Positions 2,664-17,371 of a DNA stretch of 21,223 nt are shown here, in pieces. Within the stretch, counting starts at the first letter, position 1. The number at the start of each line of letters is the position of its first letter. A program made the position numbers and the translations under genes. The DNA comes from a virus. The stretch covers positions 1-21,223 of the IMG/VR virus record IMGVR_UViG_3300035069_000190, one strand, 5' to 3'. The notes under the pieces are model-generated. The model searched no databases. It saw only the letters and a list, made by a program, of their open reading frames with translations, and had not been told where the DNA came from.

Positions 2664-3197
2664 TTATTTTTTCTTGACGACTGCAGCTTGTCCCTGTGAG
2701 GTAGAACCATCTGGGTTCTTAATAGTGACATTTCTATAGTAAACTACAACTTCTTGTACTTCACGAATGTATCTTCTTAGTTCTTGCATGTTATATGCAA
2801 GGAGTTCATAATCACTGACCGAGAATGCAACAAAGACGACATCACCATTGTTCATCTTCTTCATATCATCCATAAATCTATCAAGATATGTGTAATCTTC
2901 TGGCCAATCTGGGTTTTCTTTACCCAAATCACATACCCATTTACCATCTATTTTGGTTCTAGGTCTTTTACCTTCTTCATTTTTTACACATGGATTTGCA
3001 ATCTTAGCTTCAGATACCACATAGAACTTAGGTTCTTTCAAATCAATGTTCCTAGGCATTGTAGGTTGAATGATATCTATTTCTAATGGTTTACTGACTA
3101 TATCTATCTTCTTGTTAGGTATTAACGAACAACCACTAATTGTTAGGGTTGATATCAGAAGAAGGGTCGTCCAATGAGTCCAATTCTTTACTGTCAT
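2664..3197 (-). CDS. Lipoprotein; candidate outer-membrane spanin subunit
   Basis: A 177-residue protein with a short basic-to-hydrophobic N-terminus and a lipobox (TISGC, Cys23), so it should be exported, lipidated and held in a membrane, most likely the outer one. The mature part is about 155 residues. It has a Pro/Ile-rich beginning, two cysteines (near PCVKN and WVCDL), a helical segment rich in Met/Tyr/Arg and a Lys-rich tail. Its ATG lies inside the end of the upstream coiled-coil membrane protein (62-base overlap in another frame), an arrangement typical of Rz/Rz1 spanin pairs, which fuse inner and outer membranes at lysis. GAGAG upstream is a plausible ribosome site. It is longer than usual for an o-spanin, so another envelope role (for example superinfection exclusion) is possible. 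Lipoprotein call firm; spanin call moderate. Confidence 0.62.
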   Translation of the reverse strand: MTVKNWTHWTTLLLISTLTISGCSLIPNKKIDIVSKPLEIDIIQPTMPRNIDLKEPKFYVVSEAKIANPCVKNEEGKRPRTKIDGKWVCDLGKENPDWPEDYTYLDRFMDDMKKMNNGDVVFVAFSVSDYELLAYNMQELRRYIREVQEVVVYYRNVTIKNPDGSTSQGQAAVVKKK

Positions 3198-3531
3198 TTT
3201 CTATACTCTCAAAAACTTGTGCAGTACCATCATTGATTCTTTTTTCAATCATGCCTGGCTTTGCAATTGCAAGTTGGTTTAAATTATGTCTTCTAAAAAT
3301 GTCGAGATATGAGTTCATCTCTTGTTCTATTTGTGCATTTCTTGATGCAAGATTATTTAGAGCTTTACCTTGTTTTTCAAAGTTCTCTTTCATTACATTC
3401 ATTGCAGCTTGTTGTTCTGCAACTGCACCTTCAAGTGCAAGATTATTTGCACTTAAAACTTGATTTTGATTATAAAGATAATAAGAACCTAATCCTAGTA
3501 CCAATATAATTCCAATTAACATTTGTTGCAT
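3136..3531 (-). CDS. Membrane-anchored coiled-coil protein; candidate inner-membrane spanin (Rz-like)
   Basis: A 131-residue protein with one N-terminal hydrophobic helix (about residues 4-20, MLIGIILVLGLGSYYLY) followed by an Ala/Gln/Glu/Asn-rich segment (about 25-80) that reads as a coiled coil, and then an acidic Asn/Ser/Asp tail. This is the topology of i-spanins: N-terminus in the inner membrane, coiled coil through the periplasm, C-terminus meeting the lipoprotein partner. The start has GGGAG five bases upstream. The lipoprotein gene begins inside its 3' end. The segment FRRHNLNQLA..KPGMIEKRIN resembles proteins I recall from other marine T4-like phages, usually labelled hypothetical. 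No holin or endolysin is next to it, so the lysis role rests on architecture only. Confidence 0.6.
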   Translation of the reverse strand: MQQMLIGIILVLGLGSYYLYNQNQVLSANNLALEGAVAEQQAAMNVMKENFEKQGKALNNLASRNAQIEQEMNSYLDIFRRHNLNQLAIAKPGMIEKRINDGTAQVFESIENDSKELDSLDDPSSDINPNN

Positions 3532-3782
3532 TATAACTCCCTTATTATATAGTTCAGTCCTGCGGCACTTCTATACTCAATGACCTCATTGTCTTCGTTT
3601 GTAAATTTGAGGTGTTTTTCTTTCTGTACTGAAATCTTTTTTGCTATATAACTTCTATCGTCTGCATCACCCCATTCTTTGTTGAATGATACTGTCACTT
3701 CATATCTTGTTCTGAATAAATCTATGAACCACCAAAATGCATACTTTATCCAATCCCAGATTTTAGTTATCCACTTTCGCAC
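3531..3782 (-). CDS. Small Trp-rich, probably membrane-associated phage protein
   Basis: Function not recognised. From a GTG at 3782 it gives 83 residues: an N-terminal aromatic segment (WITKIWDWIKYAFWWFIDLF) that could be a short membrane or interfacial helix, then a mixed beta-type domain ending RSAAGLNYIIREL. The frame stays open up to an ATG at 3881, which would add 33 residues and overlap the upstream gene by 119 bases. I prefer GTG because it has GGAGAG just upstream and overlaps only 20 bases, and because the stretch further upstream lies over the conserved C-terminus of the other protein. Its stop overlaps the ATG of the coiled-coil protein by one base. Placed just before the spanin-like pair, it could belong to lysis, but nothing shows this directly. 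Confidence 0.6.
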   Translation of the reverse strand: MRKWITKIWDWIKYAFWWFIDLFRTRYEVTVSFNKEWGDADDRSYIAKKISVQKEKHLKFTNEDNEVIEYRSAAGLNYIIREL

Positions 3783-4851
3783 TTGCTCTCCACTGATAAC
3801 ATGACCAATATCTTGCTTTCCATTTAGGGCCAGGGTCAGAACAATTATGTCTTGCTCTGAATGACTTTCTTCGTTCTGCATTATCTCTGTTTATACCCAT
3901 GTTAGGGTCTCCAAATCGAACTACAACAACCTTACCCTTCTCATTCTTTACATAGACCTTAAACTTCTTATTAGGGTTCTCAGAAGTCCTTATAGGGTCG
4001 TTTAGTGTAACTTTCTTACCTTGATACTCTGCTTCTGTAAGTTGATGGTCATAATATCCTAAACATTCTGCACAACATTCTTCTTGAGCTCTTTTGATTT
4101 GGTCTGGAGTAGGAGCTCCTTTCTCACCTTTCTTTCTCATCTTCTCACCAGAACCAGCTTTAATTCTTGCCTTTTTCTTTCTGATATTATCCCAAAGTCC
4201 TTCATCTAATTCATCAAAATCACCCAGTTTTAAGAACATTCTATTTTTAACTTGTTTCTTATCAGTTGCTTTCATTCCTACCATTTTTGCAATGGAGTTG
4301 ATATATGCAAGTCCATCCTTTGCATCTTTCTTGTATCTTTTACCCATTTCTTGTTTGAGTCTTTTGGTTATGATATCAAGAACTTGTAAAACACCTGTGA
4401 CAATCTTACCATCTGTCACAAGTTGTGCTTCATTTACAGATGCAAGTGAACCTTTAAGTACAACTTTTTTCTTTTCTTTTTCTTTGTCTTTTACATGAGG
4501 TGGATGTTCATCATCACCAGCAACTATCATACCCATTTGATTTATCATTGATGTAATGACAGGCATTGGTAGTTTAACTATTTCTTGTGCAAGTGCATCT
4601 GAAACACCTTTCATCTTTTTAAGTTTCTTTAAGATATCTGCTTTGAGTTTTACACTTTCAGTGATTGCACCTTCTTGGCCAGGTGTTTGTTCTTTGTATC
4701 TTTTTAGAAGTTCTGGTGTACCGATTTCTCTATACTCTGAATCTTGTTTCTTTTTCTTTTTACGAACAATAGGTTCATTAGTTGCAACTGCACTTCCTGT
4801 TGCATTCACTGGTGCATCTTCTACTACTTCTTTGAACCTTTTTAATTTCAT
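3763..4851 (-). CDS. Modular phage structural or internal protein with Cys-containing C-terminal domain
   Basis: A 362-residue, very Lys-rich protein. The N-terminus (MKLKRFKEVVE, then DAPVNATGSAVA) is of a kind repeated in marine T4-like phage proteins. A middle part (about 65-205) is helical. At 215-218 an LDE|G site resembles a T4 gp21 cleavage site, and directly after it comes a module I recall from other marine phage proteins (GLWDNIRKKKARIKAGSGEK). The end has C259, C260, C263, then RARHNC (C337) and RYWSC (C351), possibly metal-binding. The start overlaps the stop of the diiron gene (ATGA), so the two are translationally coupled. Probably a virion or prohead component; exact role unknown. 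Confidence 0.72.
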   Translation of the reverse strand: MKLKRFKEVVEDAPVNATGSAVATNEPIVRKKKKKQDSEYREIGTPELLKRYKEQTPGQEGAITESVKLKADILKKLKKMKGVSDALAQEIVKLPMPVITSMINQMGMIVAGDDEHPPHVKDKEKEKKKVVLKGSLASVNEAQLVTDGKIVTGVLQVLDIITKRLKQEMGKRYKKDAKDGLAYINSIAKMVGMKATDKKQVKNRMFLKLGDFDELDEGLWDNIRKKKARIKAGSGEKMRKKGEKGAPTPDQIKRAQEECCAECLGYYDHQLTEAEYQGKKVTLNDPIRTSENPNKKFKVYVKNEKGKVVVVRFGDPNMGINRDNAERRKSFRARHNCSDPGPKWKARYWSCYQWRASAKVDN

Positions 4852-5954
4852 TTTACTATTTCCAATGGTTTACTTAGTTCTTCCCAAGATGTTTCATAGT
4901 CTGATTCACCGACTTGAAACTTAGAAATCCCTAACATATCATATTTAGGTAAAAGTCTATCTGGAAGTAGTCCAACCTTCTTAAGATTAGGCATAATTCT
5001 AGTAAATAGTAGTTCTTGGAACTGAGTATTCAATGCATTCTTAGTGATATATGCATCTGTATATTCAATATCGAATCCCCATTTTTCCCAAACATCATAT
5101 TGTTTAAATCTATTTCTTAACACTGTACATGCCTCTAGACAAAAATCTTCTCTTTCTTCTTTCTCTTGAGGTGTCAAAGTATGTACAAAACTTTCAAGAT
5201 AGTTTACTCCAAAAGTAACATGTCTTGCTTCGTCTCTAATAATAAGAGTAAGTAGATTTCTTAATACTGGGTCTGTAGTTGTTTGTTTTATAGTATTGAA
5301 GATTGCAAGTGCAAGTCCTTCAATAATAATCTGCATTCCGATAAATTTTAAATCCCATCTTTCATCTGTAAGAATTTTATCTAGTAATGCCTTTAATTGT
5401 GTACCAATAGGAAACATCCTACCGACTCTAGTCTGTATGTACTTATTAAATGCTTCTACATGTCTTGCTTCATCAAATGTTTGAGAAGCTGCATATAGTT
5501 TTGCATTGAATGTAGGTGCGCAACTGGTTAATTGAGATGCAACTAATAATGCACCTTGTTCACCATGTAGTAGTTGTGCAAGTGTCCAATTATTTAAATC
5601 TTGAACAAAATCTTTTCTCTGTTCTATTGACAATAATTGATAATCTTTATGGTCTTTCCACTGTTCATTGAAAAACATAAATGCAGTTTCATCTTCATCT
5701 GGATTATCTACATTCCAGTCTATATCTGTTTCTACATTCCAGTTCTTTTCTTTACCTAATTCGTACAGTTTTTTAATTCTATTGTCTTGAACTGTGTAGT
5801 CCCAATTGTAAGAACCTGTTAGAGGTGTATTGAATATCTCAACTACATCCTCTGGATTGATACCTTCATCGTCCACTGGATAGTTTGCACCATTGAAATG
5901 TGCAATGTCTTTTGGTGGAGTTTGTACCTTCGTAATCTTCATAAACCCATTCAT
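4848..5954 (-). CDS. Ferritin-like diiron protein (uncharacterised R2/AurF-like oxygenase family)
   Basis: A 368-residue four-helix diiron protein. All six ligands are visible in the classic order: E132 (LLHGEQGA), E162 and H165 (DEARH), E212 (IIEGLALA), E242 and H245 (second DEARH). It resembles bacterial proteins annotated only as ferritin-like domain-containing, distantly related to AurF-type N-oxygenases and RNR R2. It lacks the R2 pattern around the radical tyrosine and the C-terminal peptide that binds NrdA, so I do not call it NrdB. Likely chemistry is O2-dependent oxidation of an unknown substrate, in the cytoplasm. It is coupled by ATGA overlaps to genes on both sides that look structural or conserved-hypothetical. 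It is a candidate auxiliary metabolic gene, or an enzyme acting on a phage or host component. Confidence 0.85.
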   Translation of the reverse strand: MNGFMKITKVQTPPKDIAHFNGANYPVDDEGINPEDVVEIFNTPLTGSYNWDYTVQDNRIKKLYELGKEKNWNVETDIDWNVDNPDEDETAFMFFNEQWKDHKDYQLLSIEQRKDFVQDLNNWTLAQLLHGEQGALLVASQLTSCAPTFNAKLYAASQTFDEARHVEAFNKYIQTRVGRMFPIGTQLKALLDKILTDERWDLKFIGMQIIIEGLALAIFNTIKQTTTDPVLRNLLTLIIRDEARHVTFGVNYLESFVHTLTPQEKEEREDFCLEACTVLRNRFKQYDVWEKWGFDIEYTDAYITKNALNTQFQELLFTRIMPNLKKVGLLPDRLLPKYDMLGISKFQVGESDYETSWEELSKPLEIVK

Positions 5955-6535
5955 TTAATATCATGTCCTGTTATCAACATGGACTGGTCTTGTGTTATAT
6001 TGTAGACTCTGTATATGTCTACTCCCATCACATTATCAGTCCTTCCTAAAACTTGTACTTGGTCACCTCTATAACCAACATTATCTTCTTCGTTCCAAAC
6101 TGATTGTCTTAATTCATACTGTTTACCCTTTTGTAAATTATTCATATTATCATGACCTTCTAATAAGTCAAGTACTAAATCGTTTTCTTTGAGGTATTGA
6201 TAGAAATGTCTTTCAAGAGACTCTCCATCTATGTTGAAATGTTCTTTGAGTAAAGCTAATGATGCAGCGTAAGATGCAAGTCTTGTCCTACCAAATGGTA
6301 GTAGTTCCAAGACTCTTTTTAAATTAAATACTAATCTATGTAGTAGTGTGAATGAGTTTTTTTCTTCTGAGGTTTTGGGTTTCTTTGATTTGATTCTTTT
6401 ACCATTATCATCGATGAGACCGAACTTATATGCATCCATCTCTTCCCATTTACGAGTCATCATTTTAAGAATACGAAATACAATGACTGTATCTACTACA
6501 TTCATTGCACCTTCTTTTAAATCAACCTGTGTCAT
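5951..6535 (-). CDS. Conserved phage protein of unknown function
   Basis: A 194-residue protein of a type I recall from marine T4-like phages, with no assigned function. The N-terminal half is helical (VDTVIVFRILKMMTRKWEEM, then SKKPKTSEEKN, then LLHRLVFNLKRVLELLPFGR). The C-terminal half, ending YRVYNITQDQSMLITGHDIK, is richer in beta structure and polar. No catalytic motif stands out. It is coupled by ATGA overlaps to the small protein upstream (6532) and the diiron gene downstream (5954), so the three are made in fixed proportion. The conserved pairing with the upstream gene suggests that the two work together, perhaps in head or neck assembly; that is inference. Confidence 0.75.
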   Translation of the reverse strand: MTQVDLKEGAMNVVDTVIVFRILKMMTRKWEEMDAYKFGLIDDNGKRIKSKKPKTSEEKNSFTLLHRLVFNLKRVLELLPFGRTRLASYAASLALLKEHFNIDGESLERHFYQYLKENDLVLDLLEGHDNMNNLQKGKQYELRQSVWNEEDNVGYRGDQVQVLGRTDNVMGVDIYRVYNITQDQSMLITGHDIK

Positions 6536-8050: not shown

Positions 8051-9322
8051 TCAGTTACCCCTATAAGCTCTTAATTCCGATTCTTTTTCTACTTCATTTA
8101 TGAAATCCATATTGATTTCATCCTCAAATACTATTACTACACCACCTCTTGTTGCAATATATTTACCATCTTCTATCTCTAAAGGTGTAGGTTCTGCAAT
8201 CTTATATTTATCATGTAAATGAAATGGATATTCAACTTTTTGTAAATGTTCACTACCAATCTTAGGATGTTGTAATACAACTTTAGGAAACTTTCTTCCC
8301 TCAAACCAATCACCTATTTTCTTAGGATTGTTTCTAAATGCATCCAAATACTCATTACCTGTATAAGGAATAGGAAAAGAATTGTTTACATATGGTCTAC
8401 AATTATTTTCTAAGAAATAAAGTTCACCATCCTCTCCTAACATCTGAGTAATACTTCCTTCGTATGTACCACCTAACTTTGCAGCTTGATTGAGATATTC
8501 TACAACATTATCTCTTACCATCTTGTCAACTTCTGGTGTAAGTCCTTCTATTGTAGTATTTGCATACCAAACTACTGGATTTACATTAAAAAGTTGTTTT
8601 GCTTTTGATTCATCACATGATTCAGAAAAAGTAAATGACCATTTACCATCTGACATAATATATGATATATTAGTTTCTTGTCCTTTTACTAGTTCTTCGA
8701 TGTAATAAGAATATGTTGCACCATGATTATTACCACCGAATAAATGGACTTCAAATGGAAATGTGTCAATAAATGCTTTATCAGAAATTACTGTTGCAGA
8801 TGTCCATTTGTTTGATGGTTTAATAACAAATTGATTTGGTAATGACTCTATATCAATATTTCTATGATTATCACCTGCTTGTAATATTTTAGGTGTTTTC
8901 ATACCACAATGTTTTGCAAAAGAATTTGCAAATATTTTTTCTTGTTCTAATTTTATTGCATCTGGAGTTGCAGTTACAAAATCAACACCCCAATCTTTTA
9001 AATGCATTATTTCATTAAAAGGTGGATAAGTGTTTATGACTAAATCTATTTTATACTTTTCTAAAGTCTTTTCAAACTTTTCTTCCATCCATTTTGGTAA
9101 TCCATTACCAACCTCTTCATAAGTAGACATATCAATAAGATGAGACCAAGGTTGTCCTTGGGCCCAAACCTCATGTGGTAAATCATCCACTCCATGAATT
9201 CCAAGTGATTCTAGGTAATTTTTTGTATAAGTTTGATTAGTATAGACTGAATGTCCATCCTCTGCAAGTTTCTTCATAAAATGAAGATTATGTTGTTCCA
9301 TTTCAACGAATAATATGTTCAT
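8051..9322 (-). CDS. PurD-like ATP-grasp ligase
   Basis: A 423-residue protein with the domain order of phosphoribosylamine-glycine ligase (PurD). It has a Rossmann-like N-domain (MNILFVE, then DLVINTYPPFNE at 93-104), a linker like PurD (AIKLEQEKIFANSFAKHCG, 122-140), an ATP-grasp domain with FVIKPS (K168), hinge EEL (209-211) and metal site LENNCRP (E305, N307, R309), and a small C-terminal beta domain (TRGGVVIVF, 391-399). The glycine-rich loop usual in PurD after the first lysine is replaced by NKWTSAT, and overall similarity is low, so the substrate may not be phosphoribosylamine. ATP-grasp enzymes join a carboxylate to an amine through an acylphosphate. It sits between a GNAT-like orphan and a virion gene, not with other purine genes. 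There is no clear Shine-Dalgarno sequence. Confidence 0.8.
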   Translation of the reverse strand: MNILFVEMEQHNLHFMKKLAEDGHSVYTNQTYTKNYLESLGIHGVDDLPHEVWAQGQPWSHLIDMSTYEEVGNGLPKWMEEKFEKTLEKYKIDLVINTYPPFNEIMHLKDWGVDFVTATPDAIKLEQEKIFANSFAKHCGMKTPKILQAGDNHRNIDIESLPNQFVIKPSNKWTSATVISDKAFIDTFPFEVHLFGGNNHGATYSYYIEELVKGQETNISYIMSDGKWSFTFSESCDESKAKQLFNVNPVVWYANTTIEGLTPEVDKMVRDNVVEYLNQAAKLGGTYEGSITQMLGEDGELYFLENNCRPYVNNSFPIPYTGNEYLDAFRNNPKKIGDWFEGRKFPKVVLQHPKIGSEHLQKVEYPFHLHDKYKIAEPTPLEIEDGKYIATRGGVVIVFEDEINMDFINEVEKESELRAYRGN

Positions 9323-9337
9323 AATATATGATTATAT

Positions 9338-10219
9338 TTAGTCAGTTGTGCCAGGCGGTATAGGTGCTGGTTGGATACCTAATTTTTCCTGTTCGTCTCT
9401 AGATGCAATATAAGGTCTTGGTAATAAGTCTGGTCTTATAGTATCGTCCTTATGATATAGAGGATGACTCATAGGCCACCCCATCCATTCCATTTTAGCA
9501 CCAACTAATCTGTAGATAAAAGATGTCTGTTCATCTACATTAAAACCTACTTCTTGTCTTTCATTAAATGCATAACCATGTTTTAACCATCTATCATATT
9601 TTAATGACTCACACTCTCTTGCACCCCAGAGAAGTTGTTTTTGTAATTTACCATGTTGACATGCATAAGCTCTTTCATAACCATGTTGCCACATTGCTTG
9701 GTGTACAGATTCACCATCATTATTATCCCATACTGGTGAAATTTCTGGACGAGTTAACATCCAATGATGTTGGTCTCCAGTTGAATCTGGTCTTCCAATC
9801 ATAACATCAGTTTTTAAAGTCGTACTTCTCCAGTCATCTAAATCTGTTTCAACTGGTATACCAGAAGTCCCAATGTGTTTTTGAGGTTTCCAATTATCAC
9901 CACCAAGTATTTTACCAAGAGGGCCATTAGGGCCTGCTGTATGAACCATTCCACCAGAAAAATCTTCTTGATGTCTACAATCTGTAAACATTCTAAATCC
10001 TATTAATAAATCATCTTCCCACCAACACTGCCAAAATACTGCAAATCTGTCTGCATAAATCCATAAATCATCTCTCATGTCTTCGGCAGTTTCATAAATT
10101 AATGTTGGGTCATACCAACTATATGCTTTATGTTTGTAAAAAGTATTTTTCTTTATATCAAATAACTCTTTGAATTCTGATTCTTGTACTCGATATGTTG
10201 TTGTTTGTCTATATGCCAT
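9338..10219 (-). CDS. Unknown protein, weakly GNAT-like
   Basis: A 293-residue protein that I do not recognise with confidence. It is rich in Trp, Tyr, His and Asp. Residues 60-78 (AVFWQCWWEDDLLIGFRMF) read like the central strands of an acetyltransferase fold. The later segment around HGYERAYACQHGKLQKQLLWGAR and LKHGYAFNERQEVGF has the helix-then-loop pattern of GNAT C-terminal halves, but the acetyl-CoA loop (R/Q-x-x-G-x-G/A) is not evident. The C-terminus is Pro-rich. It starts from ATG with GGAG ten bases upstream and lies 15 bases from genes on both sides, after the tail fibre and before the PurD-like enzyme. An acyl or aminoacyl transfer step paired with the ATP-grasp ligase is possible; a fibre-associated protein is the main alternative. 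Confidence 0.55.
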   Translation of the reverse strand: MAYRQTTTYRVQESEFKELFDIKKNTFYKHKAYSWYDPTLIYETAEDMRDDLWIYADRFAVFWQCWWEDDLLIGFRMFTDCRHQEDFSGGMVHTAGPNGPLGKILGGDNWKPQKHIGTSGIPVETDLDDWRSTTLKTDVMIGRPDSTGDQHHWMLTRPEISPVWDNNDGESVHQAMWQHGYERAYACQHGKLQKQLLWGARECESLKYDRWLKHGYAFNERQEVGFNVDEQTSFIYRLVGAKMEWMGWPMSHPLYHKDDTIRPDLLPRPYIASRDEQEKLGIQPAPIPPGTTD

Positions 10220-10234
10220 AATATAATTTCTCCA

Positions 10235-11584
10235 TTAATCTTTTCTGTAACCTCGAATCCATACATGTCTACCATCTCCATTTGGCATCTTTCTACCTAC
10301 TTGAGGAGTATAACCTTTAGCACTATAACTAGTAGAATAACCATATTTACTACTTACTGTAGTACCATTATATCCACCAGTATAATTACATATTGATACA
10401 TAATATGCACCACGATATGAACTAGTTGGAGTTTGCATATGCATATCATACCCATAGGTAGATGGAATTGAACCCAGAGCTGATGGATGACCATTACTCC
10501 AGAAAGCAGATGATGAAATACTTATAATAAATCCTTGGTGTCTATGATTTCCAGCTGCGTTTGAAGGATGAAAGTTAGCTGCATTTGCATTAGTCACAGT
10601 TATTGCTGATTCTGGTGTAGTATATTTAGTAAGATAATTTCCAACAGTAGGCAACACATATGGCCCTTTAATAACCATGACATAAAAAAGATAAGGTGAT
10701 AAACCACTATGATATGGATTTACTCCTACTCTTGCAGCTCCTGCTGGAGCAGTTGCCATATAAACTGCCATCCAATCATCTGAACCTGTTTCATTTTTAT
10801 GTGGACTAGCTAAAGTAGTTGTTGTCACTCCAGATAAAGATGCACCAGTTTGACTTCTTAAATAAATTGGGTCTGTAGTAGTGAAAGTATTCATAGTTCC
10901 ACCAGCACCTGCGTGTGCTACAACAACTACTCTATCACCAGCTGCAGTAATAGTATTAAGACCTAATTCTGTCCATTGATTATTATGATATGTTCCATAA
11001 ACACTGAATCCAAGGTCGGAGTGGGTAATATTACTCAAATTCCCCTTCTGACCTGGCTTTCTTCCAACAGATGAACCATCCAGCTGTATACCAAAATAGC
11101 CAGGGTTTAAAGTCACAACATTAGATGTGACTCCACCCTTTGCACCTCTAGTTTGTCCACATGGGTCAGTTGTTAAAACACAATCACTGTATCCTACTAA
11201 TTTATCAAATCCTATATTAGTTGCACTACCATGAGAATTTGCAGTTGCAGTATCAAGTGTCACTGTTGGTATAGTTTGATTTGATGGTGTACCTGTACTA
11301 CCACTTCGATATCTACCATACACTGAACTAAAAGTAAGTTTGTTTTCAGTTGAAAAAGAACCACTGGATGAACCACCCCTCAGACCTGTATGAGCATTTC
11401 TTACACTGTAAAGACCACCAGTATCATGTTGTGCATTAAATTCAGAGTATTGAGGAACACCAAACACTTCATTCATACCTAACAACCCACCAGAGGTTGC
11501 AGATGGACTGCTATTAGTTGTCAGATATTTTATCATATCAGACATTGAAATATTTTGTCTTACTCCATCATGTGCAAACGACAT
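10235..11584 (-). CDS. Probable tail fibre or receptor-binding protein
   Basis: A 449-residue protein dominated by Gly, Ser, Thr, Asn and Tyr, with little charge and predicted beta structure throughout, as in distal tail fibres. The N-terminus (MSFAHDGVRQNISMSDMIKY) may be the attachment part. The middle has fibre-like runs such as LRGGSSSGSF and AGAGGTMNTFTTTDPIYLR. The last third is rich in Tyr-Gly-Ser (GGYNGTTVSSKYGYSTSYSA) and ends GDGRHVWIRGYRKD, possibly the receptor-binding tip. Its ATG overlaps the stop of the gene before it (TAATG). No chaperone gene is recognisable beside it. A receptor on the host surface is likely, but its nature cannot be read from sequence. Confidence 0.68.
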   Translation of the reverse strand: MSFAHDGVRQNISMSDMIKYLTTNSSPSATSGGLLGMNEVFGVPQYSEFNAQHDTGGLYSVRNAHTGLRGGSSSGSFSTENKLTFSSVYGRYRSGSTGTPSNQTIPTVTLDTATANSHGSATNIGFDKLVGYSDCVLTTDPCGQTRGAKGGVTSNVVTLNPGYFGIQLDGSSVGRKPGQKGNLSNITHSDLGFSVYGTYHNNQWTELGLNTITAAGDRVVVVAHAGAGGTMNTFTTTDPIYLRSQTGASLSGVTTTTLASPHKNETGSDDWMAVYMATAPAGAARVGVNPYHSGLSPYLFYVMVIKGPYVLPTVGNYLTKYTTPESAITVTNANAANFHPSNAAGNHRHQGFIISISSSAFWSNGHPSALGSIPSTYGYDMHMQTPTSSYRGAYYVSICNYTGGYNGTTVSSKYGYSTSYSAKGYTPQVGRKMPNGDGRHVWIRGYRKD

Positions 11585-15228: not shown

Positions 15229-16746
15229 CTACTGTTTATCTTTTTGATTCTGTTGTTGTCTAAACCTTGCAAGTCTTTCAACTTCTTGTTTTTTGACTTT
15301 AGGTAGTAGTCTTTTAGCAAGTTTTGCTATTGCACCTTTCTTTTTATCAAGTTTTTTACCGATTGCTATCCTAGCACCGACTGATAAATCACCAGCTGCC
15401 TTACCCCCAGACATCTTTTTAAATAGTATTGACCTTGCTTGTTTGTTTGCTTTGGTCTTCAATGCTCTTGGGTCTTTCATTCTTTTCTTTTTACGAGCTT
15501 TAGTTCTTGCAATTTTCTTTGCAAGTCTTTTCATTCTCATACCGATTGCTCGTCTTTGTTGCATGTTAAGTACTTCAAGTTGTAGTTGTCTTGTTAATTC
15601 ACTTTCGAATCTACCTTCTGCAACCTTATGTTGTTTCTTTGCCATGTTCATAGCAGTTCCATGCATGACCTCATCTGCTTTATCTTTACCATACTCTTTT
15701 TCAAAGTAATCTCTTTTCTTTTTGAGGTCTTTATAAATCTTTTCTTTTGTAGCTAATACTGCATCTGATACTTCTTTTTTATTACCATCTTTATCATACT
15801 TACCAGATTTTTTCTTTGCAATTGCAATTGCAGCTTGTTGGGCAGGACTTACACTTTTACCTTCATCTTGTTGTGCATCACTATCACGATTCTTAAGTCT
15901 AGTTAACCTTAGTCTATCTCTATCCTTTTCTCTATCGTGTTTGTCTTTCAATTGTTCTTTTTCCCTTTCTTGTTTGTCTTTTAATGCATCTGACACTCTA
16001 TCTTCTTCTAATCTTTTTTCCATTTCTGCTGGATGTTCGTATTCAGCTGCAAGTGCAACATTCTTCATAGGTTTCATGGTCAATGCAGTTTTCCATGCTT
16101 TTGCCATCTTGTTATCTGGGAAAGATTTTACGAATGCTCTAAGTCTAGGGAAGATTTTGGTTGTGTTCTTTTCTGCATCTTTTAAATCACCATCATTGTC
16201 CACAATAAAGAAGTTTGCACGACCAAATGCATTCTGGAATTTACCCATTACCTGTCTAACTTGTGCATGATTGTCTTTTACAATCTTGTCTGGTATACTT
16301 CTTTCTCTTGTTCTATTTCTATCTAATGCAGTTTCTAAAGAAGTATTTACGAATACCATTGCAGTTTCGTAACCGAGTTTTTCTAATAGAAGTTTTTGTT
16401 GTAATAATTTTTTGACATCTCTTGCAGTTGAATCTATAACAAGACCCATACGACCTTTGACTAACATGTCTTGTCGTTTTGCAGTCATAGCTTTTGCATG
16501 AACTCTTATTGCATCTCTTTGTTCTTCTTCATCCTCTGGCATCTTAAGTGAAAGACCTGCTTTCTTAAGACCTGCTTCAAATGATGAATCTGAGTTTACT
16601 GGTCGTAAACCCATAGACTGAAAACCTAATTTTTTTGCAATAAGTGATTTACCACTGCCAGGCCCACCTGCCATAAAGACAGCTTTGAAAATGCCTGGGT
16701 CGTTTATCCCCTCATTAAGCGATGCGTATGTCTCTTCCAATGTCAT
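15229..16746 (-). CDS. Zeta-toxin/polynucleotide-kinase-like P-loop kinase fused to a long basic tail
   Basis: A 505-residue protein. Residues 20-200 form a small P-loop kinase: Walker A GGPGSGKS (27-34), LVIDSTA (101-107) as Walker B-like strand, and an arginine-rich lid DRNRTRERS (141-149), closest in style to zeta toxins and T4 Pnk. Residues 240-300 are a charged helix rich in Asp/Lys/Arg. The last 140 residues are extremely basic (MRMKRLAKKIARTKARKKK and later KKLDKKKGAIAKLAKRLLPK), a module I recall from cyanophage virion proteins. N-terminal ASLNE|G (residue 12/13) fits a gp21 site. The start overlaps the preceding nucleotidyltransferase by 32 bases and has only a weak ribosome site. 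Target (nucleotide, UDP-sugar, nucleic acid end) unknown. Confidence 0.8.
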   Translation of the reverse strand: MTLEETYASLNEGINDPGIFKAVFMAGGPGSGKSLIAKKLGFQSMGLRPVNSDSSFEAGLKKAGLSLKMPEDEEEQRDAIRVHAKAMTAKRQDMLVKGRMGLVIDSTARDVKKLLQQKLLLEKLGYETAMVFVNTSLETALDRNRTRERSIPDKIVKDNHAQVRQVMGKFQNAFGRANFFIVDNDGDLKDAEKNTTKIFPRLRAFVKSFPDNKMAKAWKTALTMKPMKNVALAAEYEHPAEMEKRLEEDRVSDALKDKQEREKEQLKDKHDREKDRDRLRLTRLKNRDSDAQQDEGKSVSPAQQAAIAIAKKKSGKYDKDGNKKEVSDAVLATKEKIYKDLKKKRDYFEKEYGKDKADEVMHGTAMNMAKKQHKVAEGRFESELTRQLQLEVLNMQQRRAIGMRMKRLAKKIARTKARKKKRMKDPRALKTKANKQARSILFKKMSGGKAAGDLSVGARIAIGKKLDKKKGAIAKLAKRLLPKVKKQEVERLARFRQQQNQKDKQ

Positions 16747-17371
16747 TTCTTATGTACTCTGGTATATGATGGAATTCTTCTCGAATTGCCATTCCTTTTC
16801 TTACTGCTTTATACAGTTGTTTTCCTTGTCTAAAAGTTCTTGGTAATGCAGAAATAAATCCTTTCTCATCACCATCGAAAGCCATTGCTCTCATCTTAGA
16901 TGCAGACATACCAGATATGTCATCTGCATCTGGGTCTCTTTCACCTGCCGATACCAATTCGATATCTTTAAAGTTGTAGAAACCATGTCTACCTTTCACA
17001 CCATTGTACTTTGTGAGTAGACTTTCAAACTCTCTTAGTCTGTCTGAACCAGCAACCATTTTTACACTTCTGTATCCTTGGTTATATAAGTCAACAACCA
17101 CATCAAATACTGTTCTAGAATTAGATGTAGAAACTGTCACCTTTGCTGGTCTAAACAAGAGTTTCATGAACTTTGTTTTGGTTCTATAATCTAATGGATT
17201 TTTCTTTGGGTCTTGACTATGACTTGTATAGATAAATCCATCATCTGAACCTGCGACCTGTTTTACTTTCATTGCAAGTTTGAGATGTCCAGCAGTTGGT
17301 GGATTAAACCTACCAAATGCAAACACAGCAGTTTGTGAATTTATCTCAACTATGTCTCTGAAAGATTTCAT
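16715..17371 (-). CDS. HIGH-type nucleotidyltransferase (NMNAT/cytidylyltransferase superfamily)
   Basis: A 218-residue enzyme that transfers a nucleotidyl group to a phosphorylated substrate. The active-site pieces are clear: GRFNPPTAGH (20-29, an HxGH variant with Thr for the first His), the VAGSDR loop (106-111) and SGMSASKMR (153-161, the ISSTxxR-type motif). It is longer than phosphopantetheine adenylyltransferase, with an inserted GERDPDADD loop. Candidate reactions are NMN adenylylation (NAD synthesis) or a CTP-dependent transfer. The N-terminus MKSFRDIVE|I resembles T4 capsid-targeting peptides. The last 32 bases also encode the beginning of the kinase gene. It starts eight bases after the sulfotransferase-like gene without an evident Shine-Dalgarno sequence. 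Confidence 0.82.
   Translation of the reverse strand: MKSFRDIVEINSQTAVFAFGRFNPPTAGHLKLAMKVKQVAGSDDGFIYTSHSQDPKKNPLDYRTKTKFMKLLFRPAKVTVSTSNSRTVFDVVVDLYNQGYRSVKMVAGSDRLREFESLLTKYNGVKGRHGFYNFKDIELVSAGERDPDADDISGMSASKMRAMAFDGDEKGFISALPRTFRQGKQLYKAVRKGMAIREEFHHIPEYIRNDIGRDIRIA

Follow-up and report, generated by a model that had tools for sequence, protein, structure and literature searches.

The window that we analyzed is the whole of a source record of 21,223 bases, 99.6% of it coding, and represents part of a T4-like marine myovirus genome, with a gp61-type primase and nrdA at its left end; among isolates, Synechococcus myoviruses come closest to its primase, at 44% identity. On its minus strand, positions 4848..5954 hold a gene for a ferritin-like diiron oxidase/oxygenase. 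This is a real, intact open reading frame of 368 amino acids, beginning with ATG and ending with TGA, and it has full-length homologues. The family-wide start is probably M5 (MKITK, codon at 5940-5942), upstream of which the window copy adds MNGF. The protein matches the Pfam family AurF (PF11583) at 1.4e-10, with 41.2 bits against a curated gathering cut-off of 29.6, and PHROGs holds no family that matches it.

The gene overlaps both of its neighbors by an ATGA stop/start, with the downstream gene (3763-4851) at 4848..4851 and with the upstream gene (5951-6535, phrog_18642) at 5951..5954, all on the minus strand. An earlier, sequence-only reading of this DNA had described both overlaps correctly, but its claim that they couple the gene to structural genes is unsupported, because the flanking genes match only PHROGs of unknown function, because such overlaps are routine in the window (4-base overlaps at 4 of its 22 junctions and 1-base overlaps at several others, together nearly half), and because the neighborhoods differ between phage lineages. 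The same reading inferred a role in the phage program from the overlaps; such a role is better supported by the retention and spread of the gene across several phage lineages, and the overlaps themselves are not evidence for it. Elsewhere in the window, an overlapping Rz-like spanin pair (2664-3531) adjoins the primase, an ATP-grasp-like protein with weak similarity to PurD and D-Ala-D-Ala ligase (8051-9322) diverges among relatives more than most surrounding genes, and a zeta-toxin/AAA_33-type kinase-like gene overlaps a cytidylyltransferase-like (NMNAT-type) gene by 32 bases (15229-17371).

Six iron ligands had been named from the letters alone, and all of them lie where they were placed: Glu132 within HGEQGA (codon at 5559..5561), Glu162 and His165 of a first DEARH (5460..5471), Glu212 (5319..5321), and Glu242 and His245 of a second DEARH (5220..5231), all on the minus strand. 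Each is invariant in 44 close homologues, almost all of which share at least 54% identity, and in 27 distant ones, with identities down to about 23%. Two motifs, [DE]ExxH and [IV]xxDExxH, hold throughout these 44 and 27 sequences with no exceptions, and both DExxH motifs are present in the window protein. An AlphaFold2 model built from an alignment of 44 sequences (pLDDT 78.5, pTM 0.82) distributes the ligands over four long helices (H110-145, H149-177, H200-225 and H229-257). Foldseek matched this model in the PDB to R2-like ligand-binding oxidases (R2lox), aldehyde-deformylating oxygenases (ADO) and R2 proteins, with probability 1.00 and E-values of only about 1e-3; in a viral structure library it matched mostly ribonucleotide reductases, and nothing there was closer than those. 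A 2-His/4-carboxylate site is the kind described for most non-heme diiron hydroxylases (PMC12101540), and judged by its sequence the protein is a canonical FDO of this kind, of a type without a characterized close member. The description of the family as uncharacterized in bacteria thus holds for the subfamily, for which the PDB searches found only distant R2lox, ADO and R2 as solved relatives and for whose close members our search found no biochemistry, but it does not hold for the FDO superfamily.

Because AurF is the best Pfam family for the protein, and above its curated cut-off, an AurF/CmlI-type N-oxygenase, which would convert an amine or hydroxylamine to a nitroso or nitro product (compare AurF, CmlI, AzoC, DnfA and Dob3), has to be weighed. 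AurF-type N-oxygenases carry a seventh ligand, a His, beyond the six common to all FDOs (PMC12154687); DnfA has the same ligand set, seventh His included (PMC9478400), and HxxDExxH is the N-oxygenase motif (PMC12101540). The corresponding position in the window protein is Ile238 (5241..5243, minus strand), and it is Ile or Val in 44/44 close and 27/27 distant homologues; nor is there an AurF chain among the PDB sequence matches listed. We therefore reject membership of the AurF N-oxygenases despite the Pfam score, and regard this activity as improbable. The pair QExxH and HxxDExxH marks the CylC-type dimetal halogenases (PMC12101540), an assignment that was also rejected, since the protein has D161 and I238 instead.

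If the gene encoded a divergent small subunit of ribonucleotide reductase (NrdB/R2), working with the nrdA that lies about 3.3 kb downstream, this would account for the presence of nrdA in the window, for the R2 structures among the fold matches, and for a weak match to Ribonuc_red_sm (PF00268). That match reaches 23.8 bits, however, below the cut-off of 33.6, and a true NrdB coexists with the diiron gene in 11 of 25 phage records (Pfam E 1e-55 to 1e-76), among them five members of the clade to which the window belongs (L006, L009, L012, L014 and L018) as well as records of the other major lineages examined. The position of the radical Tyr of the Tyr-radical NrdB classes, His+4, is Phe169 in the window protein and Phe in 44/44 homologues, and the tree places the protein with bacterial genes that are not ribonucleotide reductases. 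The sub-threshold score, Phe169 and the coexisting enzyme rule out NrdB, which we consider next to impossible; the clear NrdB match with radical residues that the sequence-only reading had named as the case against itself fails on the Phe and on the separate NrdB.

That reading had also proposed looking for the gene across marine phages, and 132 IMG/VR stretches (about 130 uncultured records) encode relatives of the protein. Alphaproteobacterial and SAR86-type queries, meant to reveal viral copies nearer to the bacterial genes, found 118 stretches each, with wide overlap and mostly in the phage records already matched. Among isolate phages, tblastn found no copy in 50,697 records even at E 10, although records very near the window were possibly excluded from that set. 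The uncultured records span several T4-like, HTVC008M-like and PA5oct-like lineages, and gene neighborhoods differ between the groups. The gene sits among phage genes in several phage genomes, as an auxiliary metabolic gene does. The window's clade comprises 19 syntenic records (the window, L002-L018 and L082), L018 being more rearranged, whereas other groups are linked through capsid or sheath proteins to HTVC008M and Melnitz, a phage of Methylophilales, or to jumbo phages resembling PA5oct. Record L082 (NYUU01000108.1), a contig assigned to a Synechococcus MAG, is of phage origin and syntenic with the window, having 10 genes in common with it and a diiron protein 96% identical; in that bacterial genome it is a binning contaminant. 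In L074, a tandem, divergent second paralogue (9289-10407), 38% identical, lies directly downstream of the first. In addition to the diiron gene, iscU is carried by L215 (1143-1932, with an A-type-carrier-like ORF adjoining iscU) and L218 (1495-2533, iscU being followed by what reads as a putative 2OG oxygenase), and the IscU of L218 is closest to those of SAR86-type genomes.

Such Fe-S genes bear on whether the protein handles iron or oxygen, as a ferroxidase or a scavenger of O2 or peroxide, instead of oxygenating a substrate. IscU occurs in 5 of the 25 diiron-gene records, the carrier-like ORF in L215 was recognized by reading, and PMC5332604 reports Fe-S genes in a phage predicted to infect SAR86. 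IscU is nevertheless missing from most records, those of the window's clade among them, and an architecture of 368 residues with extensive conservation beyond the ligands suits FDO enzymes better than small ferritins. We consider this explanation very unlikely.

To place the phage copies among bacterial homologues, as the sequence-only reading had suggested, we inferred an IQ-TREE phylogeny of 63 proteins, rooted on distant copies and including 23 phage copies (the second copy of L074, on a long branch, was excluded). All 23 form one branch (100/100) among gammaproteobacterial genes, where this clade nests with SAR86 copy A (96/91, described below) and Halieaceae genes (100/97), indicating cellular ancestry; the branch between phage and bacterial copies is long, at 0.65. 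Between the window and its nearest relatives, dN/dS of the diiron gene is 0.067-0.080 (about 0.07). For three genes close by, measured against one of these relatives, the ratio is 0.18-0.24. The phage gene is under strong purifying selection. The simplest reading of the tree is that the gene was captured once, from a SAR86-like gammaproteobacterium, and later passed from one phage lineage to another.

Among GTDB-type contigs, 469 stretches matched, and SAR86 makes up most of the best 80, together with Halieaceae and Alcanivoracaceae. The family is rare in evenly drawn genomes, with 9 of 185 from the class of SAR86 and 14 of 398 from its phylum. In SAR86 the gene (X) has two contexts. Copy A is core and lies in a uniform housekeeping block, rpsF-rplI-dnaB-alr-X-pyrG-kdsA-eno. 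Copy B belongs to a block cobS-cobT-X-2OG-Fe(II) oxygenase-pantothenate kinase that has an acyl-CoA thioesterase close by. The cobS-cobT-X block occurs in L121, L151-L153, L155, L158, L212 and L213, and in several of these a 2OG-Fe(II) oxygenase and a Fumble-type pantothenate kinase come after X. The CobS and CobT proteins may be an AAA/VWA activase pair for the copy B enzyme. As a metal-insertion pair in phages they were rejected, CobT being absent from 20 of 20 phage records, and the idea is left for SAR86. Replacement of Coq7 or FabA in SAR86 was likewise set aside, since both families are already present there.

Some bacterial copies have acyl-CoA or hotdog thioesterases nearby, and an aldehyde dehydrogenase adjoins two. 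From these neighborhood hints our best guess, offered tentatively, is that the substrate may be an aliphatic acyl or aldehyde compound. The guess is weak because bacterial neighborhoods outside SAR86 are not conserved; no conserved neighbor of the gene was found there.

Several observations are consistent with a SAR86 host. The GC content of the phages (33-37%) is near that of SAR86 (35%), against 59% for Halieaceae. For the IscU of the L044-type phage, the three closest sequences in a set of 185 gammaproteobacteria come from G001 (SAR86), G042 and G187, all of which carry the diiron gene; this hint stems from another phage lineage than the window's clade. A phage of SAR86 that carries IscU and is a relative of HTVC008M has been predicted, and no SAR86 virus had been isolated by then (PMC5332604), which fits the absence of the gene from isolate phages. 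Against a SAR86 host, the isolated relatives of the diiron-gene phages infect Methylophilales, Pelagibacter and Pseudomonas. The phage records hold too few tRNAs for tRNA-based host matching. SAR86 as host is thus reasonable but unproven.

We propose that the window gene is probably a host-derived auxiliary metabolic gene for a soluble, O2-activating non-heme diiron enzyme, captured once from the SAR86 lineage, spread and retained. Hypothetically, a marine phage captured the core copy A gene of a SAR86-lineage gammaproteobacterium in a single event, after which the gene would have passed among several T4-superfamily phage lineages, with strong purifying selection maintaining it. In the infected cell, the ferredoxin/flavodoxin system of the host would reduce the diferrous site; a phage-encoded Fer2 ferredoxin was rejected as the electron donor, as none is found in the 25 records. 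The reduced site and O2 would then give a diferric-peroxo or high-valent species, which may hydroxylate, desaturate or otherwise oxidize a small host metabolite. In this way, a reaction normally run by the host's own copies would be sustained or redirected during infection.

The branch that separates the phage copies from the bacterial ones is long enough to allow for a change of function. The phage subfamily might have been repurposed to oxidize a phage-specific target, such as a nucleotide, DNA, a protein or an envelope lipid, instead of a host metabolite, and its separate clade on that branch, its persistence in lineages with unrelated neighborhoods, and its stronger constraint than its neighbors when the same relative is compared all speak for this. 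However, the ligand and second-sphere residues examined are all identical to those of the bacterial copies, and the phage protein is still 55-60% identical to that of SAR86 across almost its entire length, which speaks for an activity that was retained. We judge repurposing rather unlikely. It is likewise doubtful that the gene marks a phage-specific subfamily across unrelated SAR86-infecting marine myoviruses with a dedicated role in infection, acting on a nucleic-acid, envelope or carrier-bound target; if it did, such a dedicated oxidation would be a function performed by no known phage enzyme.

What is new here is a phage-borne subfamily, with a clear cellular origin, of the known FDO superfamily; no report of it was found in the open-access literature searched. 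SAR86 is among the most abundant uncultured bacteria of the surface ocean, its viruses known by prediction only in PMC5332604. That a core SAR86 gene is kept by several phage lineages points to an O2- and iron-dependent step of importance for the cell as well as for infection, and the metabolism of an abundant uncultured microbe may thus be adjusted by its viruses. The gene is also a candidate marker for phages of SAR86-like hosts, and offers one protein whose substrate could be sought.

The diiron protein can be set beside several known enzymes. With AurF, CmlI, DnfA and Dob3 (PF11583) it has the ferritin-like fold and six ligands in common and lies above the Pfam cut-off, but it does not have their seventh His (Ile238) and shows no close sequence identity to them. 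The dimetal halogenases CylC and NocO belong to the same FDO superfamily and act on acyl-ACP, which is one possible substrate class for the diiron protein; they have QExxH and HxxDExxH where it has DExxH and IxxDExxH. The R2lox proteins, with a 2-His/4-Glu site, are among its closest fold matches. R2lox binds a long-chain fatty acid. The Tyr of its Tyr-Val cross-link we take to lie at Glu-5, which is Met207 in the diiron protein and Met in 44/44 homologues, and the protein scores 24.5 bits against an NCBIfam cut-off of 194. Similarity to ADO, by profile and by fold, extends across the four-helix core (TM up to 0.76 by target length), but ADO has about 230 residues against 368, and the protein scores 16 bits against the ADO NCBIfam cut-off of 222.65. 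The SAR86 copy A protein is about 56-60% identical across almost its full length, keeps all ligands and holds a neighboring position in the tree, yet the phage copies form a clade of their own.
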